From positions 1 to 20,852 of the IMG/VR virus record IMGVR_UViG_3300025840_000328: a stretch of DNA of 20,852 nucleotides. One strand, given 5' to 3'. This document shows, one piece after another, positions 1 to 20,852 of this stretch; the stretch's first letter is position 1; the number at the start of each line of letters is the position of its first letter. The translations under genes were made by a program, and so were the position numbers. The notes below the pieces were generated by a model, which saw only the letters and a program-made list of their open reading frames with translations, did not search any database and was not told the DNA's origin. Origin of the DNA: a virus.

Positions 1-21
1 GAGTCAGATGGCTTTTTGCTA

Positions 22-203
22 AGTGTCACGGCTTAACTCGTTGATGATCAGCGGATTACTTTATTAGGTGACACTATGACACTTGATATCAGCCTTTGTA
101 GATGGTGGATATATATATATATATATATTAAGTATATATGGTTATTATAAGGGAATAAGTGTGTTGTACAGACAAGGGTAGGGAGGAAGTGTCATCTGTC
201 ACT
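22..203. repeat. Inverted AGTGTCA(C/T) sites flanking an AT-rich tract
   Basis: The octamer AGTGTCAC/T occurs at 22-29 (+), 68-75 (-), 76-83 (-) and 188-195 (+). A weaker copy (CTGTCACT) lies at 196-203 (+). The two inner minus copies are tandem, and so are the two right-hand plus copies. The 9 bases ATGACACTT at 76-84 are exactly inverted at 187-195, with an AT-rich centre near 135. Chance would give only a few such heptamers in the whole window. Paired, inverted short sites around an AT tract suggest protein-binding sites: operator, replication iterons, integrase arm sites or transposase end sites. I cannot tell which. Confidence 0.5.
109..128. repeat. (AT)10 dinucleotide tract
   Basis: Ten uninterrupted AT units are followed by further AT-rich sequence (TTAAGTATATATGG, then TTATTATAAGG) up to about 151. 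The tract lies midway between the two inverted pairs of AGTGTCA sites. It would melt or bend easily. A TATTAT at 143-148 could serve as a -10 element, but no good -35 sits at the right distance, so I do not call a promoter. Confidence 0.7.
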
Positions 204-277: not shown

Positions 278-374
278 GGGCCGGTAGCGTCCCGTTCTTT
301 CGAGAAAGGACACGGGAAGAACAAAGTAAAGAGGGGGGGGGTGCCCCCCCCCTCTTTCAAATAGGGCCGGTAGC
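278..374. repeat. Two hairpins between 11-bp direct repeats
   Basis: The 11 bases GGGCCGGTAGC occur at 278-288 and again at 364-374. Between them lie two stem-loops. The first, at 294-311, can form seven Watson-Crick pairs and one G-U pair around a two-base loop. The second, at 328-357, is a perfect 14-bp inverted repeat with a run of nine G, the two-base centre TG, and a run of nine C. No T-run follows either stem, so neither looks like a standard intrinsic terminator. The layout recalls a small palindromic (MITE/REP-like) element between target duplications, but that is inference. Confidence 0.6.
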
Positions 375-424: not shown

Positions 425-685
425 ATGGGAGTCATTCGCCGATCGAACGGAGGGCGTGGGAACCGTTTAACCTATCGCAGGTCGTTGCATTCGGTTGCTG
501 GTCATCAGTTGGCCTGTTCCCGCATCGAAATGAGTCTAGGCACTAGCGATCCCGGCGAGGCTCAAGCTCGAGCTCTATTGCTCGATCGGTTCGCGGCGAA
601 ACTCCAGCTCTTGCCAAATCATCCGGCATCCAACAATATCGGCGCCACTCACCCGCCAGTCCCGAGCAAACGAACCAATGATTGA
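425..685 (+). pseudogene. Short ORF resembling an integrase N-terminus, probably a remnant
   Basis: This 86-codon frame contains a stretch around residues 33-55 (IEMSLGTSDPGEAQARALLL) that is very like the N-terminal domain (DUF6538 type) of many tyrosine integrases, where a SLGT-x-D-x-x-EA signature precedes the core-binding domain. No catalytic domain (R...HxxR...Y) follows: the frame stops at 683-685, inside the start of the next gene (ATGATTGA). The residues just before the signature fit the family poorly. A neighbouring frame starting at ATG 376 reads V-G-L-F-P-H-R at the point where the family usually has a similar segment, so a frameshift near 520 is possible. It could be an integrase remnant or a small DNA-binding protein. 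The resemblance is from memory of the family. Confidence 0.35.
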
Positions 686-1532
686 GCGGCCCTTACCTTG
701 GCGAGAGGCCATCGATGTTCTGCGAAGGCGTTTGCCCCAGGGGAGCAAACGAACGGCCTCAGAATGGAGCAAGGAAGCCCAGGTGGTCAAAGATCGCGCG
801 TTTTTCTCGGCTCAGGTCGAATCCACGCGGTTTCTCGCTCGCGCGCGGAAATTCCTGCTTGATTTCATCGAGCATGAAACGGAGAACACACCCCGGGGAA
901 TTGCGTTGCGAGCGGACGGTCGAGCACGGTTCGTCAATGAGATGGCAGAATTTGCGATCCGCGAAGGACTTGGCCCGATCGGCATCCCGGCCGATGCGGT
1001 TGATCAAACAGACATCACCGACATCCGATCGGAGGCGCGCCTGCGCCTCATTTTCGACACGCAAACCCGGCAATCAGTCGGGTATGGCTGGTATAAGCAA
1101 GGACTCGATCCAGAGATTCTGGAGGCGTGGCCGGCCGCTCGGTTCATCCGTTATCCTGGGTCTAAAACCTATCGACCCAGGCATGCGCGTCACGAGGGCG
1201 ATATACGGTTAAAAACCGATAATGAGTATTGGGCATTGTATCAGAACGCAGAAGAGATCGGCGGTTTCGAAACGCCCTACGAGCCCTACGGATTCAACTC
1301 AAACATGGGTCAGGAGGACGTGAGCCGGGAGGAAGCCATTCAAGTCGGGCTGATCAAGGAAAGCACAAACGTCTCTCCTCCAAAGAAAACACCGTCGTTT
1401 AATGATAATTTGAGAGCATCGCTAAACGGGATCGATCCTGATTTACGCGCACAGTTGGCCAAAGAATTGGGCGTGAAAACGCCACGAAAACGCGACTACA
1501 TCAAGCCCCCGAAATCAAATGCCAGCAGCTAA
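678..1532 (+). CDS. Minor head protein, Mu gpF-like
   Basis: This 284-residue protein probably belongs to the Mu gpF / SPP1 gp7-like minor head family, which sits near the portal inside the capsid. The N-terminus has the family's P-x-x-E-A-I-D-x-L pattern (residues 6-14), followed by the usual stretch where the protein is delivered to the head (K-D-R-A-F-F around 38-43). The middle reads S-E-A-R-L-R-L-I-F-D-T-Q-T-R-Q-S-x-G-Y-G (about 117-136), which is the conserved core. Further on, PYEPYGFNSNMGQEDVSREE (about 200-219) ends the domain. A basic, low-complexity tail (K-T-P-R-K-R-D-Y) follows. The start overlaps the preceding short ORF, and the end overlaps the small terminase gene by 14 bases. 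The position upstream of the terminase is unlike Mu, where gpF follows the portal. Confidence 0.65.
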   Translation: MIERPLPWREAIDVLRRRLPQGSKRTASEWSKEAQVVKDRAFFSAQVESTRFLARARKFLLDFIEHETENTPRGIALRADGRARFVNEMAEFAIREGLGPIGIPADAVDQTDITDIRSEARLRLIFDTQTRQSVGYGWYKQGLDPEILEAWPAARFIRYPGSKTYRPRHARHEGDIRLKTDNEYWALYQNAEEIGGFETPYEPYGFNSNMGQEDVSREEAIQVGLIKESTNVSPPKKTPSFNDNLRASLNGIDPDLRAQLAKELGVKTPRKRDYIKPPKSNASS

Positions 1533-1920
1533 AAAGCCGGTTCCTGCGAAAGCGCGAAAGGAAACTACTGAAAAGGTCAAGACTGGCCGACCGTTGGCCG
1601 TGGTAGATGAAGAGCAAGTTTACAAGCTCAGCCAGTTTGGCTGTACCTACGAAGAGATCGGCAGTTTCTTTGACGTCAATGGTGACACGATCCGGCGCCG
1701 TTTTGCGGACACTGTTGCAAAAGGGCGAGATCATTTGAAAAGAGTGATTCGGAAAAAACAGGTCGAGTTAGCTATGCATGGAGATCGAACAATGTTGATC
1801 TGGCTAGGCAAACAGTTGCTAGGCCAAAGCGAACCGGCGTTGATACAGCAGACCAACAATGTTGTGCAAGTGACTGAAGATCCCAAGAAACGATTGGAAC
1901 GCTGGAAATCTAATCTTTGA
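1519..1920 (+). CDS. Phage terminase small subunit
   Basis: A 133-residue DNA-recognition subunit of the packaging motor. After a basic, Lys/Ala-rich N-terminus (1-24) comes a helix-turn-helix: Q-V-Y-K-L-S-Q-F-G-C-T-Y-E-E-I-G-S-F-F-D-V-N-G-D-T-I-x-R-R (about 33-61). The C-terminal half carries the family's L-A-M-H-G-D-R-T-M-L-I-W-L-G-K-Q-L-L-G-Q signature (about 84-103), frequent in terminase small subunits of Mu-like and other prophages. It overlaps the upstream gene by 14 bases and runs into the large subunit through a TTGA overlap, so the two are probably translationally coupled. Confidence 0.85.
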   Translation: MPAAKKPVPAKARKETTEKVKTGRPLAVVDEEQVYKLSQFGCTYEEIGSFFDVNGDTIRRRFADTVAKGRDHLKRVIRKKQVELAMHGDRTMLIWLGKQLLGQSEPALIQQTNNVVQVTEDPKKRLERWKSNL

Positions 1921-3248
1921 AAGAGGACGCGTCCCCGTTAGACCTGCTCTTGCCGTATCAGCGGGCTTGGGTCAACGATCCAGCTCGGTTCAAGATCGGT
2001 TTAATGTCTCGCCAAGTTGGCAAGTCGTTAGGGTGCGCATTTGAGTGCGTCCATGATGCAAGCTTGACCGGCAACGATTGGCTGATTTTTTCTGCCGGCG
2101 AACGACAAGCAAAAGAGTTCATCTCAAAGGTAGGTAACGTTGCCTTAATGTATTCGGAAGGGCTCGAGGTGGCGCGACCAGACGTTAAAGTTTCAGAAGT
2201 TAAACTTTGGAACGGCGCCCGCATAACTGGTCTGCCAAGCAATCCGGCAACTGCTCGAGGCTATAGCCGTTCTGTCATCCTCGATGAGGCGGCTTTCCAT
2301 GAGCAACCAGACGAGCTCTGGAGAGCGGTTTTCCCGATCATCACAAACCCGCTGAAAGGAGATTTGAAGGTGCGCATCATATCAACGCCAGCCGGGAAGA
2401 ACAATCTGTTTTATCGGTTATGGAGTGGCGAAGGAATGGTCAAGGGTGGGCCGTGGTCACGTCACAAGATCGACGTTTATGATGCGGTAAAGGCCGGGTT
2501 GGATCTAAACGTAGAGGAATTGCGCACTGCATTGGACGACCCTGATGGATGGGCTCAAGAATACGAGTGTGAGTTCCTCGAGGAAGCCACACAGCTTTTC
2601 CCTTATGAACTCATCGAGCATTGCACCGACGATCGGGCTACGGTCGAAAGCGCATTACCGAGGAAGGAACATATCATCCGATATGGTGGAGGCGACATCG
2701 GCCGGCATCGGGATCTATCGTGTTCCTGGCTATTGAATAGGGACACGCGCGATCCAGACGGACCGCTAGTCACCGAGGAAGTCGTCACGATGGAGCGGGT
2801 TGATTTCTCGACGCAACAAAAGATTTTCGGGGACCGGATCATCCGGTCGAGTCGGTTCGCGATCGATGCCACCGGGATCGGCGAGGAAACGGCCGAGCGA
2901 TTGACCATGAAATATGGGGAAGGCCGAGTGGATGCGTGCAAGCTGACGGCTGAGTTCAAAGGGAAGCTTTTCCCGGCCCTGAAGGATGCCATGCAGCGCC
3001 GAGCGGTCCTTATCCCAAGGAATGAGAAAATCCGCAAAAGCCTCGCGAGCGTCCAAAAAACGGTTTCCCAAGGAGGAACGATCCGCTATGTGGCAGCGCA
3101 CACTGCGGACGGGCACGCGGATGAGGCTTGCGCGCTGGCGTTGGCGGTTTGGGCGGCGAGAAGCCCAACGGGTGCCATTTCGGCGACGCAGGCCCGACAG
3201 ATCAAATCGCCGAAACCGCTTTTCCAGGCCCAACGATACAGGTTTTAG
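1917..3248 (+). CDS. Phage terminase large subunit, Mu gp28-like
   Basis: The 443-residue motor ATPase and nuclease that packages DNA into the prohead. The Walker A motif is SRQVGKS at residues 31-37, Walker B plus catalytic Glu is VILDEAA at 120-126, and the coupling motif is ISTPAGKNN at 155-163. The nuclease domain shows the expected three acidic sites: GGGDIG (Asp260), IDATGIG (Asp318) and HADEA (Asp402). The start is TTG 1917, overlapping the small-subunit stop. The next in-frame ATG is residue 30, immediately before Walker A, and would remove the N-terminal segment (LLPYQRAW) that such enzymes carry, so TTG is preferred. Length and motif spacing fit an intact protein. Confidence 0.9.
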   Translation: MKEDASPLDLLLPYQRAWVNDPARFKIGLMSRQVGKSLGCAFECVHDASLTGNDWLIFSAGERQAKEFISKVGNVALMYSEGLEVARPDVKVSEVKLWNGARITGLPSNPATARGYSRSVILDEAAFHEQPDELWRAVFPIITNPLKGDLKVRIISTPAGKNNLFYRLWSGEGMVKGGPWSRHKIDVYDAVKAGLDLNVEELRTALDDPDGWAQEYECEFLEEATQLFPYELIEHCTDDRATVESALPRKEHIIRYGGGDIGRHRDLSCSWLLNRDTRDPDGPLVTEEVVTMERVDFSTQQKIFGDRIIRSSRFAIDATGIGEETAERLTMKYGEGRVDACKLTAEFKGKLFPALKDAMQRRAVLIPRNEKIRKSLASVQKTVSQGGTIRYVAAHTADGHADEACALALAVWAARSPTGAISATQARQIKSPKPLFQAQRYRF

Positions 3249-3297: not shown

Positions 3298-4740
3298 ATG
3301 GTCAAGTTCATCGATTTCAATTTAGTCTCTTCGATCGTGGCGGGGGACTATTTCGTCGGGCACAATGCATCGAGCAATGGAGAGCTCCGTGCTACGGCGC
3401 AGAATATCGCTTCCGATTTTGCGACCATGATTCGACCGACCTGGGCGCAATCGCTGACGGATTTTCGGGGGATTGATTTAGATGTAACGAACACAGCGAG
3501 CGGGGCCGGTTCATTGCTCATGCGACTGGCAGTCGGCGGCGTGGACAAATTCACCGTCGACCTTGATGGCAACCTGAGCACGTCGGGGGATTTCTCGATC
3601 GGTTCGCCGTTGGTGTTGGATGGCAACACATCATTGACCAATGACGGTTCGACGATCGAGCTGGGTGACAATGCGCTGACGGAAACGCATCTATTTGGCA
3701 ACGTCGGCATTGGGACTACGTCGCCTGCGTCCCTGTTAGACCTTAAGGGGAATTTTAGACAACTTACGTTAGGAGATACGGGCCAATCGGGAGCCATCGC
3801 ATTTAGACGCGCCACGGACGGAGCTGTGACATCGTATGTGGGCTATTCCGGAGCGACAGAGAACGCCGTTTTTGAAATTCGCCCAGGTGGGGGCTCTGCC
3901 GAGCTACGGTTAGGTGGGAGTACAGTTAGCTCGTTTACGACTCTTTACGGGGGCGCGGCAGAGGCAATACGCATCGACTCCAGCGGCTACGTCGGCATCG
4001 GGACTACGAGTCCTGAATTCGCACTAGACGTGTCTGGTGATATTCAGATCGCCGATTCCGAGCCTCGTCTATTTTTCAAAGAGACGGACCAAGCAGATGA
4101 TGTCTGGTGGTTTCAAATGCTAGGTGGCGATTTATTTATTGAGCCAGAGGACACCGATGCGCTGTTGCGAATTCGCAACGTCGCTAATCAGACTGTTTTC
4201 GCTGTTGATACCTCCAGCGGAAACGTCGGCATTGGGACTGCGAGTCCAGCGGCTGCTTTGGACGTCAGCGGAGATATTGCGTTAGACGGCGAAATCCTAA
4301 ATTCCTACGGATCTTTAGAGGTCGAAAGCAACTCGACAGACATCACGATTTCGGGGACAGACACAGCTTTCGGCGCGAATGCTGCTCAACTTCTCGTATT
4401 CGATACGAACGGCCCCAGCAACGGTACTACCCCCGACCACACCCAGGACCACATAACAATCGATGAGGCAGGCACTTACCTGATTAGTTTCTCAGTCTCT
4501 TTTTCTGGCGGATCTGCTGATACAATTTCAGCGGCCTTTTTCATAAACAACAAGACCACCCAGCTTGGATCTCGGATGACCAGAAAACTTGGGACAGGGG
4601 GGAGCGTTGGGAGTGCCAGCCACTTAGCTATAGCCACGCTTGCGGCTACTGATACCGTCGAGGTTTGGTTTCAAAACGAATCGGCTACTGCAAACATAAC
4701 GGTTGAGGATGCTTGTCTCTCAGTCGCAAAACTCGGATAA
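3298..4740 (+). CDS. Tail-fibre-like protein with C1q/TNF-like C-terminus
   Basis: A 480-residue adhesive appendage. The motif VGIGT(T/A)SP, followed by a LD(V/L)xG(D/N) element, occurs three times, starting at residues 136, 232 and 310. This repeat is common in phage and bacterial trimeric fibres. Residues 360-480 resemble a C1q/TNF-type jelly-roll: it has the pattern I-T-I-D-E-A-G-T-Y-L-I-S-F-S-V-S-F, a central F-F-I-N-N, and a final V-E-V-W-F-Q-N, and such domains form trimeric tips. There is no signal peptide and no catalytic motif. The gene sits between terminase and portal, an unusual place for a fibre. A GAGGG directly abuts the ATG, closer than a normal Shine-Dalgarno. It may decorate the head or the tail; the sequence does not settle this. 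Confidence 0.65.
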   Translation: MVKFIDFNLVSSIVAGDYFVGHNASSNGELRATAQNIASDFATMIRPTWAQSLTDFRGIDLDVTNTASGAGSLLMRLAVGGVDKFTVDLDGNLSTSGDFSIGSPLVLDGNTSLTNDGSTIELGDNALTETHLFGNVGIGTTSPASLLDLKGNFRQLTLGDTGQSGAIAFRRATDGAVTSYVGYSGATENAVFEIRPGGGSAELRLGGSTVSSFTTLYGGAAEAIRIDSSGYVGIGTTSPEFALDVSGDIQIADSEPRLFFKETDQADDVWWFQMLGGDLFIEPEDTDALLRIRNVANQTVFAVDTSSGNVGIGTASPAAALDVSGDIALDGEILNSYGSLEVESNSTDITISGTDTAFGANAAQLLVFDTNGPSNGTTPDHTQDHITIDEAGTYLISFSVSFSGGSADTISAAFFINNKTTQLGSRMTRKLGTGGSVGSASHLAIATLAATDTVEVWFQNESATANITVEDACLSVAKLG

Positions 4741-4742
4741 TT

Positions 4743-5099
4743 ATGCCAGTACCACTAGATACACCAGTTAACCGAGAAGCCCAACCGGCGAAGGAATTCG
4801 CCAGCGCATGGTTTTCTCGGATCACCATCAACGCGCCTACTCCGTCCGACAAGGGCTTGGTGCGTATCAATGTTGCCGCCTACGATGCAGCCAGCGGGGA
4901 GGTGCTCACCGACTCCGACGGTAATCCCAAATTCATCAAGCGAATTTCAACTAACGACCTGTCGGACGCTGCGGCGAATGTCCCAGAGGTTGCAACTGCA
5001 TACGCTGCCATCATCGCTGCCATTCCAGCGCTGGAAGCCTACGAGGAGGCCAAGGCTGCAACGCCTGAACCTGAGCTTGAGCCTGAGCCTGAGGAATAG
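4743..5099 (+). CDS. Small acidic-tailed protein downstream of the fibre
   Basis: I do not recognise this 118-residue protein. The start at 4743 is chosen because it lies two bases after the fibre stop; an in-frame ATG at 4713 would add ten residues that overlap the fibre gene. The N-terminal two-thirds look like a compact fold with a basic strand (G-L-V-R-I-N-V-A-A-Y-D) and an Ala-rich helix. The C-terminus ends in a Pro/Glu repeat (PEPELEPEPEE). Its tight spacing to the fibre suggests a partner, such as an assembly helper or attachment protein, but that is inference. Confidence 0.55.
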   Translation: MPVPLDTPVNREAQPAKEFASAWFSRITINAPTPSDKGLVRINVAAYDAASGEVLTDSDGNPKFIKRISTNDLSDAAANVPEVATAYAAIIAAIPALEAYEEAKAATPEPELEPEPEE

Positions 5100-5104
5100 T
5101 CTCT

Positions 5105-5548
5105 ATGCTTGCTGAGATCGATTTGACTCAAATAGTGGTCAGTCTGTTCACCTTGTTAGGGGTAATAGTGACTTCATATTTTTCATTTCGATCCCACCGC
5201 ACGACTCGGGAGGTAAACGATGCCGTGAACAATGTTCACAAGACAGGAGGAGAACGGATTTATGATCTGGTTCTCAACAACGCCAAAGCGGCCCAGAAGG
5301 TCCAAGATGGGCTCGACCATGTCCATGAAAAAACCGATGAGCTTCTGGAGTGGAAACGTTCTTACGCAAATAGCCCGTGGAATTCAGGCGCCGGCGTGCA
5401 AGAATGGCTGAAGGATTACAACCGGACCTTGAAAGAGTTGAAGTGCGGTCATCGCCCGTGCTCTCCCCATCAAGACACAGCTAGAATTTTCGCCAAACCA
5501 AACCCAATGGCGGACACTGAAAAACAAAATGGAAAATCCAACGATTGA
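5105..5548 (+). CDS. Single-span membrane protein with coiled coil, holin-like
   Basis: A 147-residue protein with one N-terminal hydrophobic segment (residues 8-28, I-V-V-S-L-F-T-L-L-G-V-I-V-T-S-Y-F-S-F) followed by a basic turn (R-S-H-R-T-T-R). A long helical, charged stretch to about residue 85 is probably a coiled coil. The pattern V-N-N-V-H-K-T-G-G-E-R-I-Y-D recalls the DUF2746-type membrane proteins of actinobacteriophages that lie near lysis genes. Two Cys (C-G-H-R-P-C, around 114-119) follow. A holin, a spanin-like component or a membrane anchor are all possible. It overlaps the next gene by 20 bases. Confidence 0.55.
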   Translation: MLAEIDLTQIVVSLFTLLGVIVTSYFSFRSHRTTREVNDAVNNVHKTGGERIYDLVLNNAKAAQKVQDGLDHVHEKTDELLEWKRSYANSPWNSGAGVQEWLKDYNRTLKELKCGHRPCSPHQDTARIFAKPNPMADTEKQNGKSND

Positions 5549-5723
5549 ACTAAACGCAACCGAGACTCAAAACCTATTGGCGGCTTTGGATCTCATGAGC
5601 AAAGACCAGCAGGTCGGTGGGCTCAAATCGATGCAAGCGATCTTCCCGCTTGCTGCGAAGTTGTCGCAGCACGGCGTCGCGCTGCAAGAAGCCACGCCAT
5701 CGGCCGATCCTAACGAGGAATAG
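5529..5723 (+). CDS. Small hypothetical protein before the portal gene
   Basis: A 64-residue soluble protein I do not recognise. It has a predicted amphipathic helix (T-E-T-Q-N-L-L-A-A-L-D-L-M) and a second one (K-L-S-Q-H-G-V-A-L-Q), then a short acidic tail. It overlaps the membrane-protein gene by 20 bases and stops five bases before the portal start, so it is well placed in the operon. No function can be assigned. Confidence 0.5.
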   Translation: MENPTIELNATETQNLLAALDLMSKDQQVGGLKSMQAIFPLAAKLSQHGVALQEATPSADPNEE

Positions 5724-5728
5724 AACAA

Positions 5729-7342
5729 ATGGACACGCAAGCCCCTACCCGAATTTCCGCGCCTGTAATCAATCCCACCGCATGGGATAGGTTACAGCAT
5801 TTGATCAATCGAACGATGGCCCCGCATTCGGTAGAGTCCATCCTTCAAAGTGCGATCAATGGGGATTTGAGGGATCAGGGGCTTGTGTTCCTGGCCATGA
5901 TGGACACATGGCCAAGGTTGCAGAAGTGCATCAACGAAGTGGCCGGCGCCGTGGCGTCCGCGCCATTGACGCTCGAGCCGTTTTCGTTGCGTGGCGAGGA
6001 TGCCGCAGATTCGGCGACAGAAGCCGCTGCGAGCGTGGAGGATGCTCTGGCGAGTTTGACTCCCGATCCTACAAGATCGCATGAGTGCGATTTCGAGGGG
6101 CTGTTGGAGCGAATGACACACGGTTACTACGCCGGGCATTCGGTTTCAGAGATTTATTATCACCCCAATGAATCGCCGAGAGCGTTTCGCGTCCTCGATT
6201 CTAGGTATTATTCGTACCCTAGAGATCAACGGTCAGAAGATCGCTTGATGCTCAACCCGTCGGGGCACTACAACGGGCACCTGGAAGATTTCTCTAACTA
6301 TCCCGGCCGGTTCGTGGTCGGCATCAATTCCGGGCATCTAGGTCATGCGTCAGTGTCGGCGCCTCTTCGCTCATTGGTTCAATGGTGGATGGCATCGCAT
6401 TTCGGGCTTAAATGGATGTTGGAGTTTGCGCAGACGTTTGGAACGCCGATTCGTTGGGCTACCTATCCTAATGGGGATGACTGCGCGATGAATGCAGTTT
6501 CTGAAATGCTCGACACGATGGGGCTGTTGGGTTGGGGCGCATTCCCCGAGGGGACGACTCTCGACGTTAAAGAATCGAGCAAATCGGCCGGTGATCTTCC
6601 GCAGAAAGCGTTGATTGAGATGGCCGACAGACAGGTAGACATCGCGATCCTGGGTCAATCACTAACGACCGACGTGGCTGACAGTGGCTCGAGGGCGTTA
6701 GGCGATGTCCATGCAAGCGTTCGCAAGGATGCGATCAATTCTGTGGCGAATTGGGCGTTGCGCGTTCTAAATAGCCAGCTCATCCCCGCACTGCTCCCTG
6801 AGAATGGTCTAGAGCTCCCCAGGTTTAAATTGAATTGGCCTGAGATTTCGGATGAAAAAGCCTTGGCTGAACGTGACGAAATCTTGTTAGCGCGCATGAA
6901 ACTGCCAGTCGCAAAATCCTGGCTTTATGGCCGTCATAATGTGCCGGAGCCAGAAGAGGGTGAAGAGCTTTTTTCTATTGCGCCTCCCACACCCGAGCCT
7001 GAGGCCGAGCCTGCTGCGGTCGAGGCGCAACAAGCGAGCGGGGGGAGGATGGTCATGAACCGGCCGGTTGTTGATCAATTGACCGATGCGGTGATGGAAT
7101 CCGTTTCTGGCGAAGCGGCCGTTTTTCTGGCGGGGGTTCGCCCGACTTTTCGACGATTGGTGGCAACTGCACTCGATGGGAGCATTTCGGATGCGGACTT
7201 TATAGCAACGCTTGATTCGGTCGCTCTATCGATCCCAGAGATGCGCAGTGAGCTGAACACCGAAAGCCTCCAGCGAGCGCTAGAAGAGGCGATAGGGTCA
7301 GGCATGCTGGCAGGTGCCGGCGAGCGAGTGATTTCAAGATGA
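5729..7342 (+). CDS. Phage portal protein, Mu gp29-like (DUF935)
   Basis: A 537-residue portal of the DUF935 family, which forms the ring at one capsid vertex through which DNA passes. Recognisable family features in order are: the L-Q-K-C-I-N-E-V-A-G-A-V near 65-76; L-L-E-R-M-T-H-G-Y-Y-A-G-H-S-V-S-E-I-Y-Y (about 125-144); the region P-L-R-S-L-V-Q-W-W-M-A-S-H-F-G-L-K-W-M-L-E-F-A-Q-T-F-G-T-P-I (about 212-241); and the A-I-L-G-Q-S-L-T-T-D-V-A segment (about 304-315). A Pro/Glu/Ala-rich linker (about 412-430) separates a C-terminal helical extension. The end overlaps the gpG-like gene by ATGA. In Mu the portal follows the terminase directly, but here four genes intervene. Confidence 0.88.
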   Translation: MDTQAPTRISAPVINPTAWDRLQHLINRTMAPHSVESILQSAINGDLRDQGLVFLAMMDTWPRLQKCINEVAGAVASAPLTLEPFSLRGEDAADSATEAAASVEDALASLTPDPTRSHECDFEGLLERMTHGYYAGHSVSEIYYHPNESPRAFRVLDSRYYSYPRDQRSEDRLMLNPSGHYNGHLEDFSNYPGRFVVGINSGHLGHASVSAPLRSLVQWWMASHFGLKWMLEFAQTFGTPIRWATYPNGDDCAMNAVSEMLDTMGLLGWGAFPEGTTLDVKESSKSAGDLPQKALIEMADRQVDIAILGQSLTTDVADSGSRALGDVHASVRKDAINSVANWALRVLNSQLIPALLPENGLELPRFKLNWPEISDEKALAERDEILLARMKLPVAKSWLYGRHNVPEPEEGEELFSIAPPTPEPEAEPAAVEAQQASGGRMVMNRPVVDQLTDAVMESVSGEAAVFLAGVRPTFRRLVATALDGSISDADFIATLDSVALSIPEMRSELNTESLQRALEEAIGSGMLAGAGERVISR

Positions 7343-8162: not shown

Positions 8163-8776
8163 TGGGGGGATTTGATTGGCAGCGCATGGTTCAGGAAGAA
8201 TCCTCAAGCGCGGAGGCATTGTCAGAATGGATCAATCTGCAAAATTGGCCAGTGTCATCAATCGCCGACGTGGGCGCAGGACCGGGCCATTGGGCGCAAG
8301 CGATCGCGACCGGGCTCAACCTTTCGAGGGGCTGCGTAAATGGCTATGACATAGCCTCCATCGATTTTGCAGGGTTCCCAATCCATCGTTGGGACATCAC
8401 GCGGCTGAGAATCCCCCCGGCGTGGTTGGTCCTTTGCCTGGAAGTCTTCGAACATATTGACGAGGCGCATGCGGATCAACTGGCGGATCATTTGGCGGCT
8501 GCGGTTTTGGTGAACGGCCGTCTAGTTTTCTCTGCCGCTCGACCTGGGCAAGGCGGCATCGGACACATTAACTGTCAGCGTCGCGAGTATTGGGCGGAAA
8601 AGCTCGAGGCTCGAGGGCTACGTTTAGCGATCGGGGAGAGTGCTTCTCTTATCAATTTCGTGAGATCTCAACGTTCATGGATTGGATGGTTTCCGCAGAA
8701 TTTGATGATATTCCGCCAACCCGGCAGGATCGCAGATCGGGCGCGCATTCTCGACAAAATCAGTGCCCAAAGTTGA
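8162..8776 (+). CDS. SAM-dependent methyltransferase (class I)
   Basis: A 204-residue class I methyltransferase that would move a methyl group from S-adenosylmethionine to an unidentified acceptor. Motif I is IADVGAGPGHWAQ (about 34-46), an acidic motif II residue lies in GYDIAS (Asp63), and the motif IV region is LCLEVFEHID (91-100). Then comes GHINCQRREYW (134-144), a signature of Methyltransf_11/23-type enzymes that act on small molecules, lipids or sugars. No DPPY or similar motif is present, so it is not a standard DNA adenine methylase. It sits between the holin-like and protease genes and overlaps the former by one base. A methyltransferase inside a head operon is uncommon. Confidence 0.8.
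   Translation: MGGFDWQRMVQEESSSAEALSEWINLQNWPVSSIADVGAGPGHWAQAIATGLNLSRGCVNGYDIASIDFAGFPIHRWDITRLRIPPAWLVLCLEVFEHIDEAHADQLADHLAAAVLVNGRLVFSAARPGQGGIGHINCQRREYWAEKLEARGLRLAIGESASLINFVRSQRSWIGWFPQNLMIFRQPGRIADRARILDKISAQS

Positions 8777-16766: not shown

Positions 16767-20852
<4,086 letters not shown>

Follow-up and report, generated by a model that had tools for sequence, protein, structure and literature searches.

Organization of the locus

The window, by which we mean the whole stretch of DNA analysed (20,852 bases, positions 1 to 20,852 of the linear IMG/VR record IMGVR_UViG_3300025840_000328), carries a Mu-like head operon encoding a MuF-like protein, the terminase subunits, a portal and a protease of Mu type, and a major head protein. 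The MuF-like product shares, over the aligned parts, 40% identity with its counterpart in contig L002 and 37% with the head morphogenesis protein of Akkermansia phage Chantilly. At the other end of the window, 16770-20852 is occupied by a tail gene in which Gly-Pro-Thr repeats form long collagen-like runs, and the contig end falls within it. To the left of the operon is a group of short repeats arranged around an AT-rich spacer, whose parts are given with the neighbouring features in Table 1.

Table 1. Features of the repeat element and the adjoining genes, in window coordinates
Feature	Position	Strand	Remarks
Possible last 11 codons of a missing helicase gene, ESDGFLLSVTA	1..36	+	stop 34-36; suggestive only
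Outlying single box, AGTGTCAC	22..29	+	exact AGTGTCAY
Left iteron pair, GTGACACTATGACACTT	68..84	-	boxes 68-75 and 76-83, both exact AGTGTCAY
AT-rich spacer, 102 bases	85..186	none	proposed melting region
(AT)10 alternating tract	109..128	none	inside the AT-rich spacer
Right iteron pair, AAGTGTCATCTGTCACT	187..203	+	exact AGTGTCAY at 188-195; second box degenerate
C/G-rich hairpin, nine G and nine C	328..357		terminator-like on the minus strand; between proposed origin and head operon
MuF-like head morphogenesis gene	678..1532	+	first gene of the head operon
Terminase genes, small subunit (1519-1920) and large subunit (1917-3248)	1519..3248	+	

The original prediction had described four octamers and one weaker copy, set as opposing tandem pairs about an (AT)10 core, and all of these were found as described, the weaker copy being CTGTCACT at 196-203. 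The boxes are spaced by 7 bases in the right pair and by 8 in the left, and the spacer has a GC fraction of 0.31 (measured on 104 bases, 84-187) against 0.55 for the whole window. One stray exact AGTGTCAY, at 8251-8258, is the sole copy elsewhere in the window. Immediately right of the element, at 213-240, a (C)CGGCATCC-like repeat occurs three times in direct orientation.

Bases 1-677 contain no gene of known family, and comparison with PHROG gave no meaningful match for the reading frames at 262-546 and 425-685; together with the assignment of 678-1532 to a MuF-like head protein, this leaves no trace of the integrase-like remnant that had been reported beside the repeats. No helicase gene lies within the window, no transposase was recognised among its scanned genes, and it contains no tRNA. 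Rfam searches of 1-2000 gave only sub-threshold chance matches, and a DNA similarity search with 1-677 found nothing in phages and, in 8 plasmids, matches of 28-33 bases within 213-248 and nothing more.

The repeats exceed chance, though within the window alone the excess is moderate. Exact AGTGTCAY occurs 5 times in the window compared with a mean of 0.61 in shuffled sequence, and none of 100 shuffles reached 5. Four copies of some 7-mer within 1-260 were reached by 10 of 2000 dinucleotide shuffles, and the best long-loop inverted repeat of 1-260 (68-84 with 187-202, one gap allowed) was equalled in score by 1 of 60. An ungapped inverted-repeat test on 1-400 favoured instead a C/G-rich repeat, 238-251 with 328-341, and passed over the iteron pairs because of their unequal spacing. 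The strong evidence for the element comes from outside the window.

Recurrence of the layout in uncultured viruses

The exact left pair has no match in IMG/VR. The pattern TGACACNATGACACTN{85,115}AGTGTCA, which represents the left pair and one right box, is found in 4 IMG/VR contigs, two of which are the same element, and a stricter doubled, inverted TGACAC pattern, which the window itself would miss because its last box is degenerate, is found in 28. The same layout scan with a reversed motif and with a permuted motif gave 2 contigs each. These four control matches have a similar layout by eye, with one located 3' of a VapE gene (L173), one 3' of an AAA_25 gene from which a single gene separates it (L172), one 5' of a VapE gene (L174), and one adjoining an integrase gene (L175).

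Adding L103 and L105 to the 28 contigs gave a set of 30 records, comprising 21 sequence groups. The spacer has a lower GC content than its locus in all 31 clusters when the window is included. An alternating purine-pyrimidine tract (CGCGCG or ATATAT) is often present in the spacer (L103, L132, L133, L135, L137, and L138), reaching 33 bases in L132, and in L133-L138 it was judged by eye only. The original prediction had named as evidence against it the presence of many similar clusters scattered in the host genome; we approximated this with 387 Verrucomicrobiota genomes, which stand in for the host and do not include the phage's true host genome, and the tandem word AAGTGTCAT-N{1,2}-TGTCAC occurs in just 1 of them. 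A TGACAGAATGACACTT / TCATTCTGTCA arrangement is also present at 1505-1660 of L106, which belongs to the Verrucomicrobiota genome G337, but it is far from the DUF5906 match of G337, which is on another contig.

Position of the clusters relative to helicase genes

Among the 30 records, DUF5906 is present in 13 and VapE in 12, with 21 having either. In 19 of these 21, representing 12 sequence groups, the cluster starts 21-401 bases past the helicase stop codon, and in the two exceptions, L111 and L132, the helicase is elsewhere on the contig. Taken with the 28 contigs, this gives good support to the replication iterons that were among the functions first proposed for the element. The remaining 9 records have no DUF5906 or VapE match; one of them, L125, has a DUF927/Cch-type helicase upstream of the cluster, L116 has an AAA_25 protein near the array, and in L107 and L130 the cluster is upstream of a MuF gene. 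On the other side of the L107 cluster are methylase, portal, and terminase genes, and no helicase is found there.

The association was also seen when loci were picked by helicase and not by repeats. The helicase of L103 matches 433 phage records, and of 9 that were examined from 40 listed, 8 have an inverted array no more than 400 bases 3' of the helicase stop that scores above all 30 shuffles: Halomonas phage H4907, Stenotrophomonas phage S1, Pseudomonas phage Turba, pAN, PG1, Moraxella phage Mcat7, ct8d5349, and Achromobacter phage phiAxp-2. Their arrays consist of inverted iterons around an AT-rich or alternating tract, with box sequences that differ from those of the window. The eight are not all independent, because the boxes of Turba, pAN, and PG1 are almost identical; among the others the boxes differ, as they should if every helicase recognises iterons of its own. 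Bhz59 (L139), the sole failure among the nine, has no such array 3' of its helicase. In the feature tables seen for the eight phages with an array, no origin feature is annotated.

The association was weaker for DUF5906 genes in Verrucomicrobiota, where 26 loci (30 fetched, minus four whose downstream sequence was shorter than 250 bases) were tested, and a 3' inverted repeat above all shuffles was present in only 8 of 26, compared with 2 of 26 in-gene controls. A strict score for exact 6-mer arrays was positive (p <= 0.05) in 9 of the 26 loci and was set aside as insensitive, having missed the window itself.

Relatives of the phage

All five confirmed bacterial-genome matches to the large terminase are, by title, Verrucomicrobiota MAGs, and among 387 genomes taken from the phylum to which G029 belongs, 54 contain a relative. 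Single-protein searches with the MuF-like and portal proteins confirmed no close IMG/VR relatives. The closest terminase relatives (G029, G169, and L002) have other replication genes, and neither L002 nor the stretch of G029 showed an AGTGTCA cluster. Between the MuF and terminase genes of L002, at 4293-6582, are genes for a ParB-like protein, a TET-associated glycosyltransferase, and a Tet/JBP oxygenase, a gene set that suggests DNA hypermodification.

The closest counterpart found to the window element, though its box differs, is in a Verrucomicrobiota contig, L095 (G148:C146), whose terminase (46%) and portal (31%) are relatives of those in the window. Its helicase has D5_N, DUF5906, and PriCT_2 domains, and 26 bases past the helicase stop the doubled boxes GGCGAACATGGCGAACTT and AAGTTCGCCAAGTTCGCC are opposed around a 74-base loop.

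A candidate iteron origin and competing interpretations

By analogy with these loci, since the helicase gene is not in the window, we consider it probable that the element is the phage's DNA replication origin, of the PICI/SF3 type. Several of the observations above speak against this reading: besides the absence of a helicase gene from the window, the cluster has no DUF5906 or VapE gene beside it in part of the 30 records, including L107 and L130 with their MuF genes, few of the Verrucomicrobiota DUF5906 genes have a 3' repeat that passes, Bhz59 lacks the array, the closest terminase relatives have other replication genes, and two control matches (L174 and L175) are placed differently. We infer that the phage has a superfamily-3 primase-helicase of the DUF5906/VapE/D5 type, whose gene would end at the contig start or slightly to its left. 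This enzyme would bind the opposing tandem TGACAC iterons through a DNA-binding domain at its C-terminus, probably forming two assemblies that face head to head, and would melt the AT-rich spacer, from which bidirectional replication could then start. The codons at the left edge of the window may be the end of such a gene, but their helicase-like signature is not counted as proof, as it was picked after the window tail had been seen, is found in 5 of the 29 DUF5906 proteins from Verrucomicrobiota, and occurs at 0.6% of random window starts.

The boxes could instead be an operator, at which a repressor or late activator controls either the head operon or, on the left, a divergent gene. They precede the first head gene by about 475 bases, and tandem sites can bind dimers; we nevertheless regard this as unlikely, given that no sigma-70-like promoter was found in 1-1000 (with an E. 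coli-type consensus only), that the strong hairpin separates the sites from the operon, and that the same array is 3' of helicase genes elsewhere.

An attachment site with arm-type integrase sites, as had also been suggested, seems improbable even though tyrosine integrases are present in relatives (Chantilly, G029, and G169 among those checked for integration genes) and the control-motif array of L175 has an integrase for a neighbour. No integrase was found among the scanned window genes, all of which are right of the element, and the array abuts the helicase in nearly all helicase-bearing records. Similarly improbable is a transposase-binding end of a Mu-like phage, in which case contig and phage would end together; the Mu-like portal and protease and the stop of the contig 21 bases left of the first box could be cited for it. 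Mu ends normally adjoin the transposase operon, and the Mu-transposase C domain is above cut-off in just 3 of 25 viral relatives, with integrases being carried by the closest ones; in the two Mu-transposase relatives examined, L030 and L031, repeat clusters do precede the transposase but are unrelated to the window boxes, which leaves this part of the original prediction poorly supported. A terminase recognition (cos or pac) site, which the distance of about 1.3 kb to the terminase small-subunit gene might suggest, is the least credible, as the corresponding array of L095 comes immediately behind the helicase, with more than 7 kb between it and the large terminase gene.

A broader possibility, which we put forward tentatively, is that opposing-iteron origins right after an SF3 helicase gene serve tailed phages generally as a replication module and are not a hallmark of satellites, with the TGACAC/GTGTCA word reused by otherwise unrelated helicases (VapE, DUF5906, and DUF927/Cch) in unrelated phages. 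That the layout extends more widely to ordinary phages, and that the TGACAC word recurs, is the more interesting part of the analysis, though both points rest on small samples, and they could provide a sequence rule for finding replication origins in uncultured phages.

Comparison with known replication origins

Judged by title and abstract, a literature search on the box-pair strings returned nothing relevant, and searches found no paper joining VapE, replication origin, and primase, or Sfi21, origin of replication, and primase. The layout itself is already known from three systems. The portion of the PICI/SaPI study drawn on here describes an AT-rich region flanked by two iteron sets, with the initiator gene ending directly 5' of them (PMC6092414). 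Two iteron sets with an AT-rich region between them are likewise present in the window, which differs in being part of a phage that encodes its own head proteins rather than a satellite, and in that the helicase is not seen in it. In SCCmec, the D5-type helicase Cch2 binds direct repeats directly downstream of its own gene, with the iteron AAGTG (PMC7581432), and both window pairs start with AAGTG when each is read on the matching strand and away from the spacer. The Cch2 site has three iterons in a 23-base direct-repeat region, and opposing pairs are not described in the sections of that article used here (PMC7581432).

In plasmid pRN1, a required element of about 100 bases with inverted arms starts 54 bases after the SF3 primase-helicase gene, and the excerpted part of the same paper already notes a 3' stem-loop in phage BIP-1 (PMC4234260). 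The likeness to the window is in the inverted arms, the scale of about 100 bases, and the position 3' of an SF3 primase-helicase gene; the difference is that the pRN1 arms are read by the authors, in that part of the text, as a stem-loop without iterons (PMC4234260), whereas the arms in the window are tandem boxes. The window element, as a candidate origin, joins PICI/SaPI, SCCmec Cch2, and pRN1 in this layout.
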